Positions 50,781 to 61,894 of a DNA stretch of 64,000 nucleotides are shown in pieces. Origin of the DNA: Pirellula sp. (lineage in GTDB: Bacteria > Planctomycetota > Planctomycetia > Pirellulales > PNKZ01); NCBI GenBank assembly GCA_013822735.1, contig PNKZ01000002.1, forward strand, positions 496,001-560,000, written 5' to 3'. The stretch's first letter is position 1, and each line of letters opens with the position of its first letter. A program made the translations under genes and the position numbers. The notes beneath the pieces are model-generated. The model saw only the letters and a list, made by a program, of their open reading frames with translations, was not told where the DNA came from and did no database searches.

Positions 50781-53700
50781 ATGAACCGCATCTGCCCTAC
50801 TACCGGTCCGTACACGCCGCGCGACGCCGTGAGCGTCGCTGCGGCGATGCATTGGGCGCTCTTATGGGCGATCTCCACCGCGTTCATTCTAACGAACTCC
50901 GGCTGCACGCGCACGCAATATCATCGCCAGGCCGATCGCGAAGTCACGACGATTCTCAACCAGAAGAATATGCCCGGACGCTGGGGGCTTCCCGGCTTCC
51001 GGCTCGAATACGACCCGCGCAGCCGGTACTTCGACCCGACGAATCCCGATCATCCGCCGATGCCGCCGGACGATCCGTACTCGCACGTCTTCATGCACTA
51101 CGTCGACGGCATGCACGGCGCGCGCAACTACCACGTCGACGGCGACCTCAAGAGCCTCCCCAATCCCGCCTGGCGCACGCAGCTCGCGTCTTACAACACC
51201 TTCGACGCAGACGGCGCGCTCCATCTCACGCTCGACGACGCCGTGCAGTTGGCCGTGATCCACGAGCCCGACTGGCGCACGCAGATCGAAGAGTTGTACT
51301 TCTCGGCGCTCGACGTCAGCACGGAGCGGTTTCGCTTCGACACGCAATTCTTCGGCGGCTTCACGAACTTCCAGTATACGCATCTCAGCCGCGAAGCGCC
51401 CGGTGCCGGCGGCATCTCGCGCGACATTCTCACCTCCCCCGGCTACCTGCAGGCGCAGCGCAGATTTGCGGCCGGCGGCCAACTCCTCGTCGGCTTCGCC
51501 AATACGATCGTCTGGCAATTCGCCGGACCCGATACCAACGCCAACACGTCGCTCATCAACTTCAGCTTCATTCAGCCGCTCTTGCGCGCCGGCGGTCGAC
51601 GCTTCATTCTCGAACAGCTCACCATCGTCGAACGGGCCATGCTCTCGAACCTCCGGGCCTTCGAGCGCTATCGGCAAGGCTTCTATACCAACCTCGCGGT
51701 CGGCGACGGCGGCACGACCGGCGCCCAGCGTCGCGGCGGCTTCTTCGGCGGCACCGGCCTCACCGGCTTTAGCGGCCAAGGGTCCACCGGCTTCGGCGGC
51801 GTCGGCGATGCCACAGGCTTCGGCCGTGCGGGCGGCGCGGCGGCCGGCAACGGCGGGGCCGTCACGGGAGGCTTTGCCGGCGGCGGCGCCGGAACGCTCG
51901 GCGGCTACGTCGGGCTGCTGCAAACCACGCAACAAATCCGCAACACGCAACAGAACCTCAACGCGCAACTCCGCACGCTCAAGCTGCTGCAGGCCAACCT
52001 CGAAGCCGGCACGATCGATATCGCGCAGGTCGACCAATTCCGCCAAAACATCGAAACGGCCCGCGCGACGCTCCTGCAAAGCCGCATCGGGCTGGCAAAC
52101 ACGTTTGAGACCTACAAGCGCACGCAGATCGGCTTGCCTCCCGATCTTGAAATGTCGCTCGACGACGACATGATCGAACAGTTTCAGTTCATCGATCCCG
52201 AGACGAACGCCTTCTATGAGCAGCTCGAAGAGTTTGTCGAAGAACTCGGCAATCTGCCGGCGGAGCCCGACCTCGACGTGCTGAAGATGGCCCTCGATCG
52301 CTTGGACGCTTACCGCGACGACGCCGCCGACAACCTCGCCGAGATCCGGCGCGATCTGGAGTTGCTCGATTCGCGCATTCCGACGCGCAAGCTGACCATC
52401 TCCGCGGAAGAGGCGGCGCTGCTCGACAACGACGTCAAATTGCTCAAGGAGAGCTTCACCGACTTGGAGCAATTGTTCCAAGCGGGCGAAGCGCATGCCG
52501 CCGCGTTGCGCCAAGAACTCGGCCCGACGACGCGCAAGAAGTCGATCGAAAGCCTCGTCGTCACCGCCAAAGAACTCGCGCTGCTGGTCCAAGAAGCGTC
52601 GCTCGTGCAGGTCCGAGCCCGGTTGGAAAGCGTGACGTTGAGTCCCGTGTCGCTCGATCCGAAGCTCGCGCTCGCCGTCGCGCGGGCCAACCGCTACGAC
52701 TGGATGAACAACCGTGCGGCGCTCGTCGATTCTTGGCGCCTCATCGCTTACAACGCCCGCTCGTTGTTGGCGACGCTCAACGTTACGATCGACGGCAGCC
52801 TCGGCACGCGGGGCGACAACCCCGTGAAGTTCCAATCCGAAACCGGCACGCTGCGCGCCGGCCTACAGTTCGACGCGCCGTTCACGCGCTTGGTCGAGCG
52901 CAACAATTACGTGTCCGCGTTGATCGAGTATCAACGCGACCGCCGGCAGCTCATTCAATTTGAAGACGGCGTGAACCAAACCTTGCGTCAGTCGCTCCGC
53001 TCGCTGGAGCAACTCGAAGTGAATTTGGAAATCCAACGTCGCGCCGTGACCATCGCAACGCGACGCGTCGATCAGACGCGCGAAGTGTTGAGCAAGCCGC
53101 CGGAACCGACGGTGCCGGGCCAAGCCGCGGCCGGCCTCGGCCCCACGGCCGCGCTCAATCTGCTCACGGCCTTAAACGACTTGCAGGCCTCGCAAAATAA
53201 TTTCATGAGCGTTTGGCTCAACCACTACGCGGCCCGCATGGTGTTCATGCGCGAGCTCGGGCTCATGAAGCTGGACGATCGCAACCTGTGGATCGACGAA
53301 CCGCTCGACCAAGCGCTGGCCACGGCCGAGGTTTGCTTCGAAGACGAGCTGCCGCCGGACGTCCCGCGCGAATGGTTCGATGCGCTCGAACAATTGCCGC
53401 CGCCGAAAGAAGAGGGCTTGCCGCGGGCCGACCAAGATCAAATCGATGCTCTGCCGGTACCCGTGCCGCCCACCCCGGGTTTCGTACCGGGCGAGGTCGA
53501 CGAGAAGTCGGGCATCCCGATTCCGCAGATGTCGCCGATGCCGACCTTGAAGCCGGTGCCGCAATCGGAGACGCCGCCGATGCCGATGCCGCCCAACCTT
53601 CCAACGGAGCCCCGCCTGGTGCCGCCGACCAACGGCGGTTCAACGGTGCCGCAAGGTGCGCGGCGACGGCCCGCGCCCGGCAATCGCACCGCGGCCTCTG

Positions 53701-53906
53701 AGTCGCAACCCTCGCCGTTCGAGCAATTCGGTCGGAAGATGTTGGGGAACTCTCCCGTGCGACAAGCGTCGCATACGGCGCCGTTGCCGCAGACGAAGAT
53801 GCCGCAACCTCCGGCACTGCTCCCGGAAGTTTCCGAAGTCGATCGACTCCCGGCCGGCAACGGCGCCGTCGCGCGAGAACTCTTCGGAACGCCTCCGACG
53901 CCGTAG
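50781..53906 (+). CDS. TolC-like outer-membrane efflux protein with Gly-rich and Pro-rich inserts
   Basis: The 1041-residue protein begins with a signal sequence that ends ILTNSGC, a weak lipobox. It carries two outer-membrane-efflux repeats (LTLDDAVQLAVIHEPDWRTQ; later AVARANRYDWMNNRAALVDS), with long coiled helices rich in Gln, Leu and Arg. TolC itself has about 490 residues. The excess comes from a Gly-rich insert (about residues 308-378), a helical middle part and a Pro-rich C-terminal tail of about 160 residues. The start is the ATG at 50781, after AGGGG. The likely partners HlyD (57019) and MacB-like (58964) lie 3.1 kb downstream across a repeat-bracketed island. Confidence 0.85.
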   Translation: MNRICPTTGPYTPRDAVSVAAAMHWALLWAISTAFILTNSGCTRTQYHRQADREVTTILNQKNMPGRWGLPGFRLEYDPRSRYFDPTNPDHPPMPPDDPYSHVFMHYVDGMHGARNYHVDGDLKSLPNPAWRTQLASYNTFDADGALHLTLDDAVQLAVIHEPDWRTQIEELYFSALDVSTERFRFDTQFFGGFTNFQYTHLSREAPGAGGISRDILTSPGYLQAQRRFAAGGQLLVGFANTIVWQFAGPDTNANTSLINFSFIQPLLRAGGRRFILEQLTIVERAMLSNLRAFERYRQGFYTNLAVGDGGTTGAQRRGGFFGGTGLTGFSGQGSTGFGGVGDATGFGRAGGAAAGNGGAVTGGFAGGGAGTLGGYVGLLQTTQQIRNTQQNLNAQLRTLKLLQANLEAGTIDIAQVDQFRQNIETARATLLQSRIGLANTFETYKRTQIGLPPDLEMSLDDDMIEQFQFIDPETNAFYEQLEEFVEELGNLPAEPDLDVLKMALDRLDAYRDDAADNLAEIRRDLELLDSRIPTRKLTISAEEAALLDNDVKLLKESFTDLEQLFQAGEAHAAALRQELGPTTRKKSIESLVVTAKELALLVQEASLVQVRARLESVTLSPVSLDPKLALAVARANRYDWMNNRAALVDSWRLIAYNARSLLATLNVTIDGSLGTRGDNPVKFQSETGTLRAGLQFDAPFTRLVERNNYVSALIEYQRDRRQLIQFEDGVNQTLRQSLRSLEQLEVNLEIQRRAVTIATRRVDQTREVLSKPPEPTVPGQAAAGLGPTAALNLLTALNDLQASQNNFMSVWLNHYAARMVFMRELGLMKLDDRNLWIDEPLDQALATAEVCFEDELPPDVPREWFDALEQLPPPKEEGLPRADQDQIDALPVPVPPTPGFVPGEVDEKSGIPIPQMSPMPTLKPVPQSETPPMPMPPNLPTEPRLVPPTNGGSTVPQGARRRPAPGNRTAASESQPSPFEQFGRKMLGNSPVRQASHTAPLPQTKMPQPPALLPEVSEVDRLPAGNGAVARELFGTPPTP

Positions 53907-53948
53907 TGTCCCCGTCGTGTGCGTTCGTTGGGGTCGGCGTCAACAACT

Positions 53949-53967
53949 CCTCTCCCACTGGGAGAGG
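53949..53967. repeat. Palindromic repeat CCTCTCCC/GGGAGAGG
   Basis: CCTCTCCC at 53949-53956 and GGGAGAGG at 53960-53967 form a perfect 8-bp stem with a 3-nt loop, followed by ATGCCCGCAGGGCAGGTGAG. This wording recurs as a dispersed palindrome in many bacterial genomes. It lies just after the TolC-like gene and may serve as its 3' structure. The rest of 53907-54051 has no gene. Confidence 0.6.
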
Positions 53968-54051
53968 ATGCCCGCAGGGCAGGTGAGGGCCGCGCGGAAT
54001 TGCGTTTGGTATCGCGTGCGCACGGACTTGAGCTTCGCGGCTCAATGGTGT

Positions 54052-54300
54052 CACGGGTGGCCCAGGTTGCTCCGCAACCTGGGTTCACAAGAGGCCCGAG
54101 GGCATTAGCTCCCGCCAATGGATCACAGCTCCGACTGAGCACCTGACACGGATCGCTGATCGCCAAAGCCGTAATTCGTCGGTATCGATTGCACGGGTGC
54201 GAGCATTGTGCAGGACTTCCGGTGCGGCAACAATTGGTTGAACAAAACCAGCGTCAGCCTCCGGTAAACCCAGGTTGCGGAGCAACCTGGGCCACCCGTG
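54052..54300. mobile_element. 249-bp MITE/BIME-like element, copy 1
   Basis: The element has terminal inverted repeats of about 37 bp with one mismatch (CACGGGTGGCCCAGGTTGCT at the left end). Each terminal repeat contains a perfect 10-bp hairpin, CCCAGGTTGC/GCAACCTGGG, with a 3-nt loop (54061-54083 and 54269-54291). GTGG sits at the outer base of each stem, as in REP sequences moved by RAYT transposases. No protein is encoded inside. A second copy lies at 56369-56621. Clear target duplications were not found. The rest of the TolC-SUKH gap (54301-54485) shows no gene. Confidence 0.75.
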
Positions 54301-54485
54301 CGCTAGACGGACGAAGCGTGTTTTTTGCGTACATTGCCGAATCCGTCTGCCCACCACGCAATCAGGCGCCGACCTACAAATCGTAACGCCAAGCAAATTC
54401 TTGACTTCCGACTCGCGCGCGAATTAAGCTCCGGAGCTATACAGACGAATCCTGTCCAATAACTAGTTAGCCGGCAGAGGTGCGC

Positions 54486-54914
54486 GTGACACTCGACGAG
54501 GCATTCGCGGAACTCCGTCGCAGGAACGAGCCCGTTCTAAAGCCGCCCCGGTTGCCGACCGAGGATGAGGTGAACGTCGCCGAAGGGAAGCTTGGCGTCC
54601 CTTTTCATTCTGACTACCGTCGGTTCTTGCTGGAGGCGAGCGACATCAGTTTCAGCGTCTTGGAGCCGGCTACGATCACAATCCCTGGGGCGCATACCGA
54701 TTTATTCCGCATCGCGCAACGGGCGCGAGGTACGTGGAAAGTGCCCGTGGAGTTGGTGCCGATCTGCGAGGACAACGCGGACATTTACTGTATGACACCT
54801 GACGGTCGAGTGATCTTCTGGTCGCACGACATGCAGGCACCGAGCGGTGCGGAGTGGCCCAATCTGGCCGCTTGGATTGAGGATGTCTGGATGTTCGACT
54901 ATGAGGCCGGCTAA
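54486..54914 (+). CDS. SMI1/KNR4 (SUKH) family protein
   Basis: The 142-residue protein carries the SUKH core: LPTEDEVNVAEGKLGVPFHS followed by DYRRFLLEASD, then PICEDNADIYCMTPDGRVIFWSHD in two overlapping pieces. Bacterial SUKH proteins are mostly immunity proteins against polymorphic toxins, but a toxin gene is not seen nearby. The GTG at 54486 is preceded by AGAGG 5 nt upstream. The gene lies in the island between the two 250-bp elements, next to another small unknown gene. Confidence 0.82.
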   Translation: MTLDEAFAELRRRNEPVLKPPRLPTEDEVNVAEGKLGVPFHSDYRRFLLEASDISFSVLEPATITIPGAHTDLFRIAQRARGTWKVPVELVPICEDNADIYCMTPDGRVIFWSHDMQAPSGAEWPNLAAWIEDVWMFDYEAG

Positions 54915-55024
54915 CCAGTCGCTCCACCTGACACGGCGACTTATACTCAATTCAAATTCAACGTCTCGCCTGCCGCCGTGCAGGTGACCTATTACGTTCG
55001 GCGGCGGATTGAGTGGAGGGGCGA

Positions 55025-55522
55025 ATGTCGCGGCTGACGTGGGCAGACTTGCTGATAGATGACGTTAGCCCCGAGCAGTTCCGCGCTTGGCTCGCCCCGT
55101 GGGCCGGAACGGTGAACGGCCGGGTTGCCCCTGCGTTCCTAAGCAAATTCGGCTTCTGGTTCCTTCGTCGCCCGGAGGGGCACGTCGAGATGCTGGACGT
55201 GTTCACCGGCCAGTTGCATCGGGCCGCCCACAGCTACGACGAGTTCATGCGTGAGGTCAACGAGCAGTGGTGGCAGGAGGTGTACCTTTTGTCTGAGTTG
55301 GTGTTCCAACTTCACGCGGCGGGCAAAGTGCCGGGGCCCGGCCAGTGCTACGCGCTTGCCCCGCATCCGGCGCTCGGCGGCCCCAACCCGGCTAATGGAG
55401 ACGCCGTCGATCCACGGTTCGTAGTTGTCACCGATGTGGTAGTTTGGCAGTCGATCTGTGCGCAATCATTGGGGGTAGGCCAAGACGCCGAACCAGGCGC
55501 TCCAGCAGACGGCGGGGCATAA
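55025..55522 (+). CDS. Unknown small protein, possible immunity-type
   Basis: The 165-residue product is not assigned. It is Trp-rich and soluble, with FGFWFLRRPEGHVEMLDVFT and FVVVTDVVVWQSICAQSLG as the clearest stretches. The overall look (a domain read as FG...LD..TG and a C-terminal D.VVWQSI) recalls Tdi1-like immunity proteins, but this is a weak impression. GGAGGG lies 4 nt ahead of the ATG at 55025, a strong ribosome site. It follows the SUKH gene after 110 bp in the repeat-bracketed island. Confidence 0.55.
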   Translation: MSRLTWADLLIDDVSPEQFRAWLAPWAGTVNGRVAPAFLSKFGFWFLRRPEGHVEMLDVFTGQLHRAAHSYDEFMREVNEQWWQEVYLLSELVFQLHAAGKVPGPGQCYALAPHPALGGPNPANGDAVDPRFVVVTDVVVWQSICAQSLGVGQDAEPGAPADGGA

Positions 55523-55630
55523 TTCGTTCCTTTACTTCAAGCTCATCAGCCCGCCGCTGCTGAGCTGCAACGTTAGCCTATGAAGCAGAAACGCCTGACG
55601 TATCCGGAAGAAAAAAGGCGGAAGAAAAAA

Positions 55631-55668
55631 GGGGACATTCTGGTTTATTTAAAAAGTAGAATGTCCCC
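55631..55668. repeat. Long palindrome with GGGGACATTCT arms
   Basis: GGGGACATTCT at 55631-55641 pairs perfectly with AGAATGTCCCC at 55658-55668 across a 16-nt AT-rich loop. A-rich sequence comes before it and TTGTCTTTT after it. It can act as a bidirectional terminator for the upstream gene. Palindromes with this wording are common in planctomycete genomes and often sit near tyrosine-type REP transposases (recollection). No transposase is present here. Confidence 0.65.
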
Positions 55669-55701
55669 TTGTCTTTTCCGGGCAGTAGGCCCGCGGCTTA
55701 C

Positions 55702-56322
55702 ATGAATTCTTTTGGAAGCCCAATACGCATGAATGCATGGCTTGCGACAATTGATTCAAGAGCGCACACCCGATGGGTGTTGACCGCGGCGGCGTTGTCC
55801 GTCTTCTGTATGGTCGGTATGGTGGTCGCGGTGCCCGATATCGACAGACATCCGGTCACATTCGCTCTCTCGATATCTTGGGTGGTTGGCGGTTTTGTCG
55901 GACTCTTCACGCGAAACTACTTGCTCGGAATTAATCCTTGGCGATTTCGTTTTGCTCTTTGGGAACGTGAAGGTCGGGTATATCGCTACTTGGGAGTAGA
56001 AGCGTTCCGCTGGGTGCTGCGGCAAACTCCCTTCGGCTGGCTCAATCCGGCCGTGAGGATGACGGCCCGCAAATCGGATCTCGAACCATTACTCCGACAG
56101 ATGAACTTTGCCGAAGGTGCGCATCTGATTGGAGGCGCCATCACCCTCTGCTTGGCGATCGGATACGCGATCACCGGTCACAGGAACGTCGGACTCTCGT
56201 TTGCGGTCATCGCCCTCTTGGTTCATTTCTACCCGATGATCACGCAGCGCTGGAACCGAGGCCGCGTCGCACGAGTCGTCCGACGTATCACGCCGGGCTC
56301 TGCACCGAGCGGAAATGTCTGA
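55702..56322 (+). CDS. Membrane protein, possibly CrtO-like acyltransferase
   Basis: The protein has about 206 residues and four predicted membrane segments. FRFALWEREGRVYRYLGVEA and, later, HFYPMITQRWNRGRVARV resemble the WER.G..Y+.lgv and YP...QR.NR.R signatures of glycosyl-diaponeurosporenoate acyltransferase-like (CrtO) proteins. That family acylates glycolipids in carotenoid paths, but wider uses are likely. The match is moderate and the substrate is unknown. Starts at 55702 and 55729 are both possible. It ends 46 bp before the second 250-bp element. Confidence 0.5.
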   Translation: MNSFGSPIRMNAWLATIDSRAHTRWVLTAAALSVFCMVGMVVAVPDIDRHPVTFALSISWVVGGFVGLFTRNYLLGINPWRFRFALWEREGRVYRYLGVEAFRWVLRQTPFGWLNPAVRMTARKSDLEPLLRQMNFAEGAHLIGGAITLCLAIGYAITGHRNVGLSFAVIALLVHFYPMITQRWNRGRVARVVRRITPGSAPSGNV

Positions 56323-56368
56323 GCATGCGTGGAATTAGGCTTCTGAACCCCTTGAACTAATTGCGGCG

Positions 56369-56621
56369 CACGGGTGGCCCAGGTTGCTTTGCAACCTGGG
56401 TTTACAAGAGGCCGAGGGATTTTGCTCCCGCCGATCCATCACCTCTCCGACTGGGTGATGGAGTGTCTGACGCAGATTGCTATTCTCCGGTCCTTGAATC
56501 GCTGGTGCCGATCGCACTTGAACGATCACTGTTCGGGATGACCTGTGCACTAACTGGTTGTGACAGGATCGGCTTGAGCCTCTCGTCGACCCAGGTTGCG
56601 GAGCAACCTGGGCCACCCATG
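56369..56621. mobile_element. 253-bp MITE/BIME-like element, copy 2
   Basis: The left end repeats copy 1 over about 80 bp (GGGTGGCCCAGGTTGC, then AACCTGGGTT, AACGAGG-like and CTCCCGCC blocks), including the same 10-bp palindrome. The right end carries CCCAGGTTGC/GCAACCTGGG and GGCCACCCATG. The interior differs more from copy 1. Same order and orientation as copy 1 support an intact element of fixed length rather than chance palindromes. Confidence 0.72.
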
Positions 56622-56655
56622 TTCTGGCGCGTGCAGATGCGAAGCACCAAGCCGC

Positions 56656-56763
56656 CTGGGGCATCACCTCGTTCTGCCCCAGCCACCCGCGACGACGTAA
56701 GGTCGGGACAAAACCAAAGACGGCCTCTCGTAGACCCAGGTTGCGGAGCAACCTGGGCCACCC
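56656..56763. repeat. Two further palindrome copies beside element 2
   Basis: CTGGGGC/GCCCCAG at 56656-56682 is the inverted relative of the hairpin at 49959-49985. CCCAGGTTGC/GCAACCTGGG at 56735-56757 repeats the end palindrome of the 250-bp elements without a matching left end, so it looks like a truncated copy. Both are followed by CCACCC. The remaining spacer to 57018 holds only short GC hairpins, such as CCGCGG/CCGCGG at 56810-56825, and no gene. Confidence 0.68.
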
Positions 56764-57018
56764 CGGGGGCGTTAGAACCGGCGTTTTCTTACCGCTGCGG
56801 TAGGTCATTCCGCGGAAATCCGCGGTAGATAGCCCGACTGCAGAATTGCCATTTGCTTGGCGGCTGCGGACAATGGTACGGCTGGTCGCATTGTCGGCCT
56901 GCGGCGGCGCAACCCCCTTGTACCGTCGAAACTTCCGCTCGCCGTCGGGGTTCCTAACGCAGGGAAGGGTTCCAGCCCCCCACGCCGTCGGCCCGCACGC
57001 CTTACGAAAGCCTCGCCC

Positions 57019-58944
57019 ATGAATTCCTTCGGGCCCCCCGAATCGGAATCGCCGCTGCCGCTCCCTGCCACGCCCGCGCCGGCCGGCCTTACCGCGTCGC
57101 CGGAAGCCGATCCCCGCAAGGCGGCTCAGATCGCGGCCTTGTTTCGCAACGACGGTAGTGAAACCGATCGCCAGGCCCTGCCTCGTTCCGGCGCTATGGG
57201 TCGGATCTTCGGTCGCGTGATCGTGTTCGCGGTGTTGCTGTCGATCGTGGTCGGCGGCAGTTGGGCCGCGGCGAAGTACTCGGGCCTGTTCGACGAGAAG
57301 GCCGCCGTGAAGCAGATGACCCATAAAGTGGAACGGGGCGATCTCGTGATCACCGTAACGCAGAAGGGGAACGTCGAGAGCGCGGCCAACATTGAAATTC
57401 GTTGCTTGGTGGCCGGCGGCGGCATCATCAAAGATATCGTGACCGACGGCACGATCGTGAAAGAGGGAGATCAACTCGTCGAACTCGATTCGGCGGCGAT
57501 CGACGAACAGATTCTGCAACAACGCATCGGCTACGAGAAGGCCCGGGCCATTCGCGACCAGGCCAAGAACGATTTGGAAGCGGCGAAGATTGCGCTGCGC
57601 GAATACGTCGAAGGGACCTTTAAGAAGGAAGTGCAAATCGTCGACGGCCAGATCACGATCGCCGAAGAGAATTTGCGCAGCGCGCAGAACACGCTCCTCT
57701 ACACGGAGCGGATGTTTCGCAAGGCGTACGTAACGCCGCTGCAACTTGAGGCGCAGCAGTTTGCCGTGAAGCGTGCGCAATTAGAACTCGATACCGCGAA
57801 GACCGCGAAGCGCGTGCTCGAAGAGTTCACGTATCTGAAGATGAAGAACGACCTGGAGACGCAGGTTGCCACGGCCGGCGCCAAGGCCTCGAGCGAGCAG
57901 ACGGCTTTTGAATTGGAAGAATCGAAGCTCAAACGGCTGGAGACGCAAAAGCTCAACTGCCTCATCGCCGCGCCGCAAAACGGCATGGTGGTGTACGCCA
58001 ACGATAGCGGCGGCAGTCGATTCGGCGGCAGCAGCGATCGGCCGAAGATCGAGGAAGGGGCCACGGTGCGCGAAGGGCAGGTCATTTTGCGCGTGCCCGA
58101 CCTCAGGCAGATGCAGGTGCGCGTGACGGTGCACGAATCGAAAGTGGAAAGCTTGAAGGCGGGAATGCCGGCTTCGATTCGCATTCAAAACCGGAAGTTG
58201 ACCGGCTACGTGACTTTCATTGCGAATCAGCCGGAATCGACGAGCATGTTTTCGGCCAACGTGAAGGAATATGCCGCGTTTGTCCGTGTCGACGGCGAGC
58301 AGCACGATTTGAAGCCGGGCATGACGGCCGAAGTGGAAATTTTGGTCGACGAGAAGAAGGGGGTGCTGACCGTGCCGGTGCAGTGCATCGTCGAGCAGGC
58401 CGGCCGGCTTTACGCTTGGCGCGAGACGCCGCAAGGCTTTGAGAAAACGGAGATCAAGCTCGGCACCGGCGACGATCGCAAGGTGGAAGTGATCTCGGGA
58501 CTCAGCGAGAACGACGTCGTGTTGCAGAACCCGCCGGAGCGCTCGGAAGGAAACTTCGCGACGTCGCCGGGCTCGCGTTCGCAATTTGGCGCAGGGCCGC
58601 GCGGCACGAAGCCGAGCGGGGAAGCGCCTAGTGGTGGAGCGCCGAGCGACGGTGCGCCGGCGGCCAATGGCGCGACGCCAGGAAGCGGAGCAGGGCAGGG
58701 GGGACCGGCCGGGAGTCGACCCTCGGGCGGCCGCTCGATGGATGTGATGTCGTTTGATAAAGACGGCGACGGCAAGGTGAGCCGCGCCGAAGCGCCGGAA
58801 CAGATGCAGGCCTTCTTCGATCGCATGGACGGCGACGCCGACGGCTTCATCTCCGCGGCAGAAGCCGCGGCAGCCCGCGCTCGACGCGCGTCGCAGGGTG
58901 GTGCGCCGGGCGGCGTACCCGGCGGCGGCGGACCCGGAACCTAA
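57019..58944 (+). CDS. HlyD-type membrane fusion protein with C-terminal EF-hand pair
   Basis: This is a periplasmic adaptor of a tripartite exporter: a membrane helix near residues 62-85, a barrel-sandwich start (ERGDLVITVTQKGNVESAAN), long coiled-coil hairpins, and a beta-barrel part (TVHESKVESLKAGMPASIRI). After a low-complexity Gly/Ala/Pro linker, two canonical calcium-binding loops end the protein: DKDGDGKVSRAE at 580-591 and DGDADGFISAAE at 604-615. Each has Asp at 1, 3 and 5 and Glu at 12. EF-hands are not part of the usual MFP fold. The protein has 641 residues; the ATG at 57019 gives MNSFGPPESESPLPLPA. A permease gene follows after 19 bp. Confidence 0.85.
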   Translation: MNSFGPPESESPLPLPATPAPAGLTASPEADPRKAAQIAALFRNDGSETDRQALPRSGAMGRIFGRVIVFAVLLSIVVGGSWAAAKYSGLFDEKAAVKQMTHKVERGDLVITVTQKGNVESAANIEIRCLVAGGGIIKDIVTDGTIVKEGDQLVELDSAAIDEQILQQRIGYEKARAIRDQAKNDLEAAKIALREYVEGTFKKEVQIVDGQITIAEENLRSAQNTLLYTERMFRKAYVTPLQLEAQQFAVKRAQLELDTAKTAKRVLEEFTYLKMKNDLETQVATAGAKASSEQTAFELEESKLKRLETQKLNCLIAAPQNGMVVYANDSGGSRFGGSSDRPKIEEGATVREGQVILRVPDLRQMQVRVTVHESKVESLKAGMPASIRIQNRKLTGYVTFIANQPESTSMFSANVKEYAAFVRVDGEQHDLKPGMTAEVEILVDEKKGVLTVPVQCIVEQAGRLYAWRETPQGFEKTEIKLGTGDDRKVEVISGLSENDVVLQNPPERSEGNFATSPGSRSQFGAGPRGTKPSGEAPSGGAPSDGAPAANGATPGSGAGQGGPAGSRPSGGRSMDVMSFDKDGDGKVSRAEAPEQMQAFFDRMDGDADGFISAAEAAAARARRASQGGAPGGVPGGGGPGT

Positions 58945-58963
58945 CGCCGGAGCCCCGCGCGAC

Positions 58964-60298
58964 GTGTTCGTCACCAAACTACTGCAGACGTTTCGTCTCG
59001 GCGTGAAGAGCTTGCTCTTGCACAAGCTGCGCTCGGCGCTGGCCGTGTTGGGGATTTTGATCGGCGTCACGGCCGTGATCTGGCTCGTGGCGATGGGCGA
59101 AGGCGTGAGTCATCAGGCCCAGCAGCAGATCAAAGACCTGGGGGCGACGAACATCATTGTGCGCAGCGTGAAGCCGACGATGAGTTCGTCGGCCGCGGCG
59201 GCGGGGAGTTTCTTCGTCGAATATGGGCTGAAAGGGGACGATTTGGCCCGGTTTCGCTCGATTCCGTCGGTGATCGGCACGGTGCCGCTGCGCGAGTTGA
59301 ACCAGAAGGATGCTCGTTATCTCGATCGGCAACTGGATGTGCGCATCGTCGGCTGCCGCGCGCAGTATGCGGAGCTCAACCAGCTTCGCATCGCGTCCGG
59401 ACGCTTCATCGCCGACGAAGACGAACGGAACGTCGAGAACGTTTGCGTGCTGGGTTCGGAAACGGCCCGCACGTTGTTTCGTTACGAAGATCCGCTCGGC
59501 AGGTCGATCTTGCTCGACGACAAGATCTATGTGGTCGTGGGCGTGACGGAGTTTCGCGACGCGACGGGAAGCATCGGCGGGAGCTTCAGCGGCCAAGACT
59601 ACAATCGCGACGTTTACATTCCGCTGGAAACGCTCAAGGCCCGGATCGGCACGATGGTGCTCACCGCGAAGGCCGGCGGGCGCGAGGGAGAGATCGTCGA
59701 CCTGAGCCAGATCACGGTGACGGTGCGCGATATTGAAGACGTGGATGAAACGTCGTCGATCATTCGCCGGCTGTTGGAGAGATTTCATCCGAACAACGAT
59801 TACGCGCTCGTGGTGCCGAAGGAGCTGCTGCGGCAAGCGGAGGTGACGCGGATGATGTTCAACGCGCTCTTGATCGTGGTGGCGGGGATCTCGCTCTTGG
59901 TCGGCGGCATCGGCATCATGAACATCATGCTGGCGACCGTGACGGAGCGCACGCGCGAGATCGGCATCCGCCGCGCGCTGGGAGCGAAGCAGCGCGATAT
60001 CGTGTACCAGTTTCTCTCCGAGACGTTGGTGCTCTCGGCGACCGGCGGATTGCTCGGCGTGTTGCTAGGGTTCTCGGTGCCGTATGTCGTAATGAGCGCG
60101 CGGTGGTTCGTCGGCGAATTCTTCCCGGCGGCGATGGCGTCGATCCCGCCGAACATCCGCGACATTGCGCCGCGGATCGCGCCGTGGAGCGTGATCGCGG
60201 CGTTCTTCATTTCGATCTTCGTGGGGGTGGTGTTCGGCATGTACCCGGCGCGGCGTGCGTCGCAGATGGACCCCATCGACGCCCTGCGGCACGAATAG
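58964..60298 (+). CDS. MacB-type ABC permease without an ATPase domain
   Basis: The 444-residue protein has a first membrane helix near the start (LRSALAVLGILIGVTAVIWL), a large periplasmic domain of the MacB_PCD type, and three C-terminal helices of the FtsX fold. These include GGIGIMNIMLATVTERTREI followed by GIRRALGAKQRDI. MacB proteins normally carry an N-terminal ATPase or have a separate ATPase gene beside them. Neither is seen here. The GTG at 58964 has GGAG 11 nt upstream. It is 19 bp behind the HlyD gene, so the two likely form one operon. Confidence 0.88.
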   Translation: MFVTKLLQTFRLGVKSLLLHKLRSALAVLGILIGVTAVIWLVAMGEGVSHQAQQQIKDLGATNIIVRSVKPTMSSSAAAAGSFFVEYGLKGDDLARFRSIPSVIGTVPLRELNQKDARYLDRQLDVRIVGCRAQYAELNQLRIASGRFIADEDERNVENVCVLGSETARTLFRYEDPLGRSILLDDKIYVVVGVTEFRDATGSIGGSFSGQDYNRDVYIPLETLKARIGTMVLTAKAGGREGEIVDLSQITVTVRDIEDVDETSSIIRRLLERFHPNNDYALVVPKELLRQAEVTRMMFNALLIVVAGISLLVGGIGIMNIMLATVTERTREIGIRRALGAKQRDIVYQFLSETLVLSATGGLLGVLLGFSVPYVVMSARWFVGEFFPAAMASIPPNIRDIAPRIAPWSVIAAFFISIFVGVVFGMYPARRASQMDPIDALRHE

Positions 60299-60488: not shown

Positions 60489-61391
60489 ATGCCCACCAAC
60501 GCCGCACAGGTTGAAGAACTTCGCTGGAAGAAGATGCCGGTCCTCGACGACGGGTTTGTCTGCCTCGTCGACGTGATGGGGGACGATCAATCGATCGTGC
60601 AAGCGGCCCGAGTGAGCTACGGCGAGGGGACGCGCAAGGTGTCGGACGACCGCGGCCTGATCCGCTACTTGATGCGGCATCGGCACAGCACGCCGTTTGA
60701 GATGGTGGAGATCAAGTTTCTCTGCCGCGTGCCGATGGATACCTGGCGTCAATGGATTCGGCACCGCACGGCGAATGTGAACGAATACTCGACCCGGTAT
60801 TCGCTAGCCATCGACGCGGCCCAACAGACGCCGCCGGACCTGTGGCGCGGCCAGGCCGCCACGAATCGCCAAGGTAGCGGCGACTACCTCCCGCCGGAAC
60901 TCGGCGCGGAACTCACGGCTTCGGAAGCGCAGCTGCAGGAACAGGCTCGCAAGCTCTACGAGCGGCGCATCGAGTTGGGCGTGGCACGCGAGCAGGCTCG
61001 GAAGGATCTGCCCCTGTCGACCTACACCGAGGCTTACTGGAAGGTCGACCTGCACAACCTGCTGCATTTCCTCTCGCTGCGGATGGATTCGCACGCCCAG
61101 CTTGAGATTCGCGAATATGCGACGGCGATGGGGGAGAAGATCGTGCAGCCGCTGTTCCCGCTGGTGTGGGAGGCGTTTCGCGACTACCGGCAAGGGGCGA
61201 TGTTTCTCACCCGCCTCGATACGGAACTGATCGCCCGGCTCATGGCTCGGCTCGCGGCGGCCGGACGGACGACCGGCGGGGACGACGACTTCATGGCCGT
61301 GCAAGACCCGACGTGGGTCGACATGGCCCGCAACCGCGAGCGGGACGAATGCCGCGAGAAGCTGGTGCGGTTGGGGATTTTGAAAGTTTAG
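60489..61391 (+). CDS. thyX: FAD-dependent thymidylate synthase ThyX
   Basis: ThyX makes dTMP from dUMP using methylene-tetrahydrofolate and reduced FAD. The signature RHRX7S is seen at residues 91-101 (RHRTANVNEYS), with STRYS after it. The upstream LMRHRHSTPFEMVEIKF motif is also typical. At 300 residues the protein is longer than the usual 220-250, mostly through N-terminal and C-terminal additions. No thyA is in the window. The ATG at 60489 is 68 bp after a candidate promoter. Confidence 0.95.
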   Translation: MPTNAAQVEELRWKKMPVLDDGFVCLVDVMGDDQSIVQAARVSYGEGTRKVSDDRGLIRYLMRHRHSTPFEMVEIKFLCRVPMDTWRQWIRHRTANVNEYSTRYSLAIDAAQQTPPDLWRGQAATNRQGSGDYLPPELGAELTASEAQLQEQARKLYERRIELGVAREQARKDLPLSTYTEAYWKVDLHNLLHFLSLRMDSHAQLEIREYATAMGEKIVQPLFPLVWEAFRDYRQGAMFLTRLDTELIARLMARLAAAGRTTGGDDDFMAVQDPTWVDMARNRERDECREKLVRLGILKV

Positions 61392-61492
61392 CGCGGCGCC
61401 ACCGCGTGGACGCGGCGGCTAAGCCCGAGATTCACTTTGTTCGGCAATTCATAACTCATAACTCTAAACTCATCATTTTCCGGAATCCCGCC

Positions 61493-61894
61493 ATGGCCGA
61501 CGCCGCACAAGAATTGCTTTCCCTCAATCAAAAGCTTCTGGTCGCCATTGTCGGCGGCGATTGGAAAGGGTACGCCGACCTATGCGATCCGACGCTCACC
61601 TGCTTCGAACCGGAAGCCCGCGGACATGTCGTCGAAGGGATGCCGTTCCACAAGTTCTACTTCGATCTCGGCGCGGGAAGTCCGAAGCCGGCCGTCGGCA
61701 CGCAGGTGACGATGGCGTCGCCCCACGTGCGATTGATGGGTGCCGACGCCGCGGTGTTGAGCTATATCCGCTTGAATCAGAAACTGAATTCAGCGGGCGA
61801 GCCGGTGACCGTCGCCGTAGAAGAAACACGGGTCTGGCAGCGAATCGGCGGCGCTTGGAAACACGTGCATTTCCACCGTTCGATGCCGAGCTAG
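61493..61894 (+). CDS. Stand-alone CaMKII association-domain-like protein
   Basis: The 133-residue protein matches the CaMKII association domain (SnoaL/NTF2-like fold): LLSLNQKLLVAIVGGDWKGY, then LTCFEPEARGHVVEGMPFHK and FYF. In bacteria such proteins form ring-shaped oligomers of unclear function, and no kinase domain is attached here. There is no signal peptide. It follows thyX after 101 bp; the spacer carries tandem ATAACTC-like words (61451-61472). Start at the ATG at 61493. Confidence 0.82.
   Translation: MADAAQELLSLNQKLLVAIVGGDWKGYADLCDPTLTCFEPEARGHVVEGMPFHKFYFDLGAGSPKPAVGTQVTMASPHVRLMGADAAVLSYIRLNQKLNSAGEPVTVAVEETRVWQRIGGAWKHVHFHRSMPS

Follow-up and report, generated by a model that had tools for sequence, protein, structure and literature searches.

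Clusters of attC sites lacking an integron-integrase are termed CALINs in the IntegronFinder definition and have been proposed to be degraded integrons (PMC9024848), which is how integrase-less cassette clusters are usually treated. For the sedentary chromosomal integrons of Planctomycetes, attC models exist (PMC8352920) and intI has been reported (PMC2426708), and attG sites have been listed with attI and attC among the substrates of the integrase (PMC12901181). REPINs have been described as well (PMC3116915), and folded single strands are recognised by both TnpAREP and IntI (PMC8266576). Moreover, an IS200/IS605 element lies beside a CALIN in Halorhodospira halochloris (PMC7923331). Within the literature library searched, PMC8266576 was the sole paper to treat integron attachment sites and transposase-associated REP sequences side by side, and no report of the association described below was found. 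The block considered here is very probably an attI-headed, integrase-less integron remnant comprising two cassettes, an acquired CrtO-like gene and hairpin repeats, inserted between the TolC and HlyD genes of an exporter locus.

The window (the whole 64-kb stretch analysed, G000:C2:496001-560000) belongs to a genome of 6.88 Mb in 38 contigs, G000, and the principal comparisons are with two congeners, G001 and G003, and a relative in the same family, G006. On the + strand, a TolC-type outer membrane efflux protein gene (50781-53906; PF02321, 4.4e-9) forms the left flank of the block, which is followed by a HlyD/MacA-type adaptor gene (57019-58944; HlyD_D23, 9.3e-9; HlyD_3, 3.5e-8) and by a MacB-type permease gene with MacB_PCD (1.3e-35) and FtsX (3.7e-21) domains and without an ATPase domain (58964-60298). 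The C-terminus of the adaptor includes an EF-hand-like segment (58750-58870). A sequence-only reading of this DNA had named these three genes together with a SUKH gene, a CrtO-like gene and a gene of unknown kind between them, and had proposed that mobile material entered an ancestral efflux operon. Profile matches recover all six genes at the same positions, all on the + strand. In G003, G001 and G006 the TolC orthologues adjoin HlyD directly, without cargo, with 345, 327 and 191 bp between the matches, respectively. These empty sites in three relatives indicate that roughly 2.8 kb entered this lineage, and comparison with them sets the limits of the insert at about 53907-53944 on the left and 56764-56845 on the right; no target-site duplication was seen by eye when the window was compared with the empty sites. 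Furthermore, none of the genomes found carried the same three cargo genes without the repeats. The earlier interpretation is thus partly supported: insertion of mobile material is right in outline, whereas the nature of the inserted DNA had been misidentified. An attI-like head followed by integron cassettes makes up much of the cargo, the 250-bp repeats resemble REPINs rather than established transposon ends, and two attC sites and the head itself had gone unnoticed.

That the material entered an operon is too strong a statement, since an intact HlyD-MacB promoter-like sequence lies downstream of the insert (56846-56874, + strand) and TolC and HlyD are found apart in two other genomes. The promoter-like sequence, TTGCCA-N17-GACAAT, is sigma-70-like and conserved before HlyD in five genomes (the window, G001, where it ends in GAGAAT, G002, G003, and G006), and it persists where no TolC gene adjoins HlyD. 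In G002 the two genes are placed on different contigs with other neighbours, and in G005 they are on different contigs too, so their linkage is not strictly kept. Between this sequence and the HlyD start codon, the leader (56875-57018) contains complementary segments resembling AACCCC...GGGGTT, similar in the relatives, and may be structured. To judge from these motifs, transcription of HlyD-MacB is probably unaffected by the insertion, which would have been tolerated because these two genes still have their own promoter.

The exporter does lack an ATPase, as had been noted earlier, although the insertion cannot be blamed for it. No ABC ATPase is present at the exporter locus in the window, G003 or G006, in all of which ThyX follows HlyD-MacB, and its absence from the uninterrupted loci of G003 and G006 led to rejection of the insertion as the cause of the loss. 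The ATPase is located after MacB in G020, and the G000 protein closest to it (61%) belongs to a complete paralogous exporter cluster, TolC-HlyD-ATPase-MacB, on contig C9 (128443-135204; L066); this ATPase might conceivably serve the window exporter in trans. An open reading frame with a CaMKII association domain (61166-61894; PF08332, 3.8e-39) follows ThyX in the window. Since the promoter-like sequence is intact downstream and the ATPase was already absent earlier, the exporter appears to have been bypassed and not broken, and the lesson for annotation is that a seemingly broken exporter operon may be functionally intact.

Within the insert, two integron gene cassettes occupy adjacent positions on the + strand. 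Cassette 1 (54467-54996) carries an immunity-type gene of the SUKH_5 family in the SMI1/KNR4 superfamily (54480-54914; PF14567, 9e-31), whose stop codon is contained in attC1 (54909-55002). Cassette 2 (54997-55572) carries the gene formerly described as unknown (55013-55522, start probably at 55025), which has a weak match to the immunity-type family T6SS_Tdi1_C (PF08906, 2e-5; 24.8 bits, just below the Pfam cut-off of 27.4), and its end is overlapped by attC2 (55487-55578). The Tdi1-like protein has one distant match, at 38.6% identity, in a plasmid collection, and an NCBIfam search of the three cargo proteins gave no match. Judging by their families, the products of both cassettes probably have immunity functions.

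The lead to the attC sites was a stretch behind the SUKH gene that matches a second locus, L072, and shows attC architecture. In a structural scan of the 64-kb window, attC1 and attC2 were the only sites above threshold. Both lie where a small gene terminates, as is usual in cassettes, and present R'', L'', L', and R' boxes together with an extrahelical C and A in the canonical places on the top strand. A covariance model built from nine attC sites, which include these two and in part sites first noticed near the repeat element C described below, assigns them 79.2 and 67 bits (model R1). A second model, R2, built without attC1, attC2 and the site most similar to them, nevertheless ranks attC2 first (35.8 bits, 2.9e-8) and attC1 second (25.9 bits, 2.6e-5) in the 64 kb, with the next match at 13.7 bits. 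Moreover, the R'' box of each site pairs with the start of its own cassette at 7/7 positions: cassette 1 starts at TTAGCC and its R'' GGCTAAC exactly complements its own start GTTAGCC, while the start GTTCGGC of cassette 2 pairs with its R'' GCCGAAC, a rule that holds for many other cassettes too. It could be argued that the region is the product of ordinary intergenic expansion, with unrelated small genes and repeats brought in by recombination and attC-like sites that are chance hairpins. The region is indeed repeat-rich, and in simple folding energy attC1 and attC2 surpass shuffled sequences by a small margin only (z-scores of -0.8 to -1.8). However, the matches to the held-out R2 model, the exact own-start pairing, the two extrahelical bases in both sites and the existence of a dozen similar clusters, two of them with integrase remnants alongside, leave this explanation with almost no credibility. 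In an Rfam scan, the sole match was a weak one to Hammerhead_HH9, which was discarded as sub-threshold (22.1 bits against 52).

Cassette 1 is preceded by approximately 160 bp whose homologue stands in front of the first cassette of another cluster in the same genome, L194. This attI-like head (54303-54466, + strand) ends at the crossover G|TT (CCAATAACTA|GTTAGCC), and the homology stops there too: the two heads share CTGTCCAATAACTA as far as the crossover, after which the window has GTTAGCC and L194 has GTTCGCC, a shared sequence followed by divergence that is expected if different cassettes joined the same attachment site. Both heads also contain a promoter-like TTGACT-N18-TAAGCT/TATGCT directed into the cassettes (TTGACT at 54401-54406 and TAAGCT at 54425-54430 in the window), which could express the window cassettes today. 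Direct, attI-independent integration of single cassettes by IntI at a secondary site of attG type in the TolC-HlyD interval would agree with the exact crossover points at each cassette and with the place given to attG sites among integrase substrates (PMC12901181). This route is nonetheless very unlikely, for the head sequence is common to another cluster up to the crossover, which a random target would not be, and the empty sites of the relatives show no head-like sequence.

Other head types are shared by L195 and L201, by L193, L199 and L072, and, in congeners, are found at L208 and L205. The L195 and L201 heads carry N-terminal remnants of intI, divergent from the cassettes, which match 69 aa (8e-23) and 34 aa (8e-10), respectively, of the IntI of G003, a congener in which intI is whole (TIGR02249, 372 bits). 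As far as its contig reaches, the DNA beside this intact gene aligns with both heads and, together with the stubs, identifies them as attI regions of decayed integrons. At L195 (G000:C6:181000-187000) the reading frame appears to continue from the intI stub into a copy of element C; the L201 locus corresponds to G000:C5:167000-173000. Adjacency to an intI stub is seen only with this type of head, whereas the window and L194 heads share the core and the homology, and no intI remnant is recognisable in the window head. By analogy, the window head may be regarded as an attI region, on account of its position, its core motif and its homology to one other cluster.

Searches and retrieved stretches, on which the genome-wide counts rest, place about 25 attC sites of G000 in 12 dispersed clusters, the window cluster included, with sites below approximately 20 bits being uncertain. 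The cassettes of the other clusters encode SUKH (L201), Imm32-like (L199, below cut-off), DUF1963 (L197) or ankyrin (L198) proteins, or nothing recognised. No TIGR02249 match over the cut-off was found in the 38-contig assembly, where intI could sit in a gap, and the arrangement of a complete integron, with a functional intI beside attI, is represented in G000 solely by the stubs at L195 and L201. In the integron-remnant reading, approximately 2.8 kb of mobile material would have entered, in this lineage, a gap of some 100 bp between the TolC stop codon and the HlyD-MacB promoter. The integron integrase of the genus, while present, would have captured the cassettes by recombining their attC sites, folded from the bottom strand, at the head. 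Later loss of the integrase gene would have left this and about eleven other clusters fixed, and REP-type hairpin elements would have accumulated within the cluster and at its edges.

The third cargo gene is of a different kind. The CrtO-like gene (55702-56322, + strand; PF18927, 3.1e-18) is absent from the other six family genomes searched, relatives giving one distant match only, and appears to have been acquired. Neither R1 nor R2 matches an attC between 55835 and the HlyD gene, so no attC stands behind the CrtO-like gene as it would in a third cassette. The last gene before the second REPIN likewise has no attC at L072 (G000:C2:625000-631000), a second REPIN-bracketed cassette cluster located about 76 kb away. 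The order there is an attI-like head, a 130-aa cassette, an attC that element C interrupts, another attC and a DUF6714 gene without attC.

The two 250-bp elements with matching ends that had been noticed earlier are real. REPIN-A1 (54052-54300) and REPIN-A2 (56369-56621), to which no strand is assigned, as for the other hairpin units below, are 72% identical overall, and their 44-bp inverted ends are 93% and 86% complementary, respectively. In REPIN-A1 the two inverted REP hairpins lie at 54061-54083 and 54269-54291. Each REP-A unit has a 10-bp stem, a 3-base loop and an inward-facing GTAA/GTAG-like foot, and a third copy, a single unit with a GTAG foot, is found at 56708-56763. With at most 2 mismatches allowed, the 6.88-Mb genome has 14 occurrences of the core palindrome CCAGGTTGCNNNGCAACCTGG versus 0 for a reversed-pattern control, and hence CCAGGTTGCNNNGCAACCTGG is not a chance repeat. 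Altogether, 11 doublets or parts thereof occupy 8 places, with the inverted REP pairs that characterise REPINs. The other palindromes mentioned earlier also exist and represent two further repeat families, elements B and C. Element B (53945-54040, + strand) is the left half of an inverted-repeat element of about 200 bp and shares 91% identity with the corresponding half of a complete copy at L073; the family has 73 matches in the genome, with copies often grouped locally. Its right half is missing and does not appear on the far side of the insert either, so that the insert did not simply split the element. Element C (55619-55680; GGGGACATTCT...AGAATGTCCCC) is a RAYT-associated hairpin element, having the same ends as the repeats that flank, in inverted orientation, the RAYT gene of locus L080 (1468-2139; repeats at 1415 and 2138).

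This architecture raises the question, implied already by the sequence-only reading, of whether the cargo travelled as a composite, REPIN-bracketed unit mobilised by the inverted REP doublets or by RAYT enzymes acting on these. Bracketing of cassette clusters by REPIN-A recurs in the window, at L072 of the same genome and at L208 of the congener G001, where a three-attC cluster lies between two REPINs; the homology of the attI-like head begins where the REPIN ends, both in the window and at L072; and cassette clusters are enriched in element C, the repeat found on either side of a RAYT gene. We nevertheless regard such a composite unit as unlikely. None of the 8 Y1_Tnp matches has REP-A within about 1.5 kb on each side, and thus no RAYT gene found carries it at its ends; no target duplication or precise boundary has been identified; the window REPINs, only 72% alike, are not the fresh ends of one unit; and REPINs occur without cassettes too. 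A conventional composite transposon made of the two 250-bp elements was rejected on similar grounds, as there is no transposase gene among the insert ORFs, no duplication was seen, and the elements are only 72% alike.

Quantitatively, 7 of the 9 other copies of element C lie within 1 kb of a cassette cluster, or 5 of 9 when only clusters listed by the genome-wide model search are counted, and 5 of the 11 REP-A doublets lie within 2.5 kb of one. The binomial values (7e-15 for element C and 7e-8 for REP-A) carry no correction for the intergenic location of both kinds of element, which by itself would produce some co-occurrence; in addition, some clusters were first noticed via element C, so that both values show association and not mechanism. 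A mechanistic link in this genus between RAYT-type hairpin elements and integron clusters is an unlikely reading; under it, REP-type elements would insert at, or help to spread, short attI-headed cassette clusters, which were thereby copied widely and persist without a resident integrase. The recurrence of single-strand hairpin elements in these clusters does open the question of whether there is interaction between two systems that each work on folded single-stranded DNA.

Compared with known systems, the outer membrane, adaptor and permease genes of the locus are of the families that form the MacA-MacB-TolC tripartite exporter, from which the locus differs in having no ATPase in the family relatives examined. 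The repeats resemble REPINs and RAYT-associated REP elements (PMC3116915, PMC8266576) in their inverted, hairpin-forming REP doublets and in the ends that element C shares with a RAYT locus, although REP-A has few copies and long spacers, of about 160 bp between the two REPs of a doublet in the window, and no RAYT gene was seen next to it. A CALIN in a genome without intI is likewise adjoined by an element from a single-strand hairpin family, with an HUH transposase, in Halorhodospira halochloris (PMC7923331); however, a complete insertion sequence and group II introns are involved there, whereas here small non-coding hairpin elements occur at several clusters. Sedentary chromosomal integrons share with the clusters of G000 the attC architecture, the small cassette genes and a divergent intI whose 5' end adjoins attI (L195 and L201), while differing in that here no intact intI was found and many short dispersed clusters take the place of one long array. 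Finally, the window cluster is a CALIN as defined (PMC9024848), its two attC sites with cassettes and its lack of a neighbouring integron-integrase agreeing with the definition of at least two such sites. Unlike typical CALINs, several clusters here keep attI-like heads and some have REPIN-type frames. Thus, of the dozen small clusters in this one genome, several have attI-like heads and two still bear the first codons of the lost integrase, a gene that survives complete in a congener, so that the way in which a chromosomal integron decays and disperses can be followed step by step.
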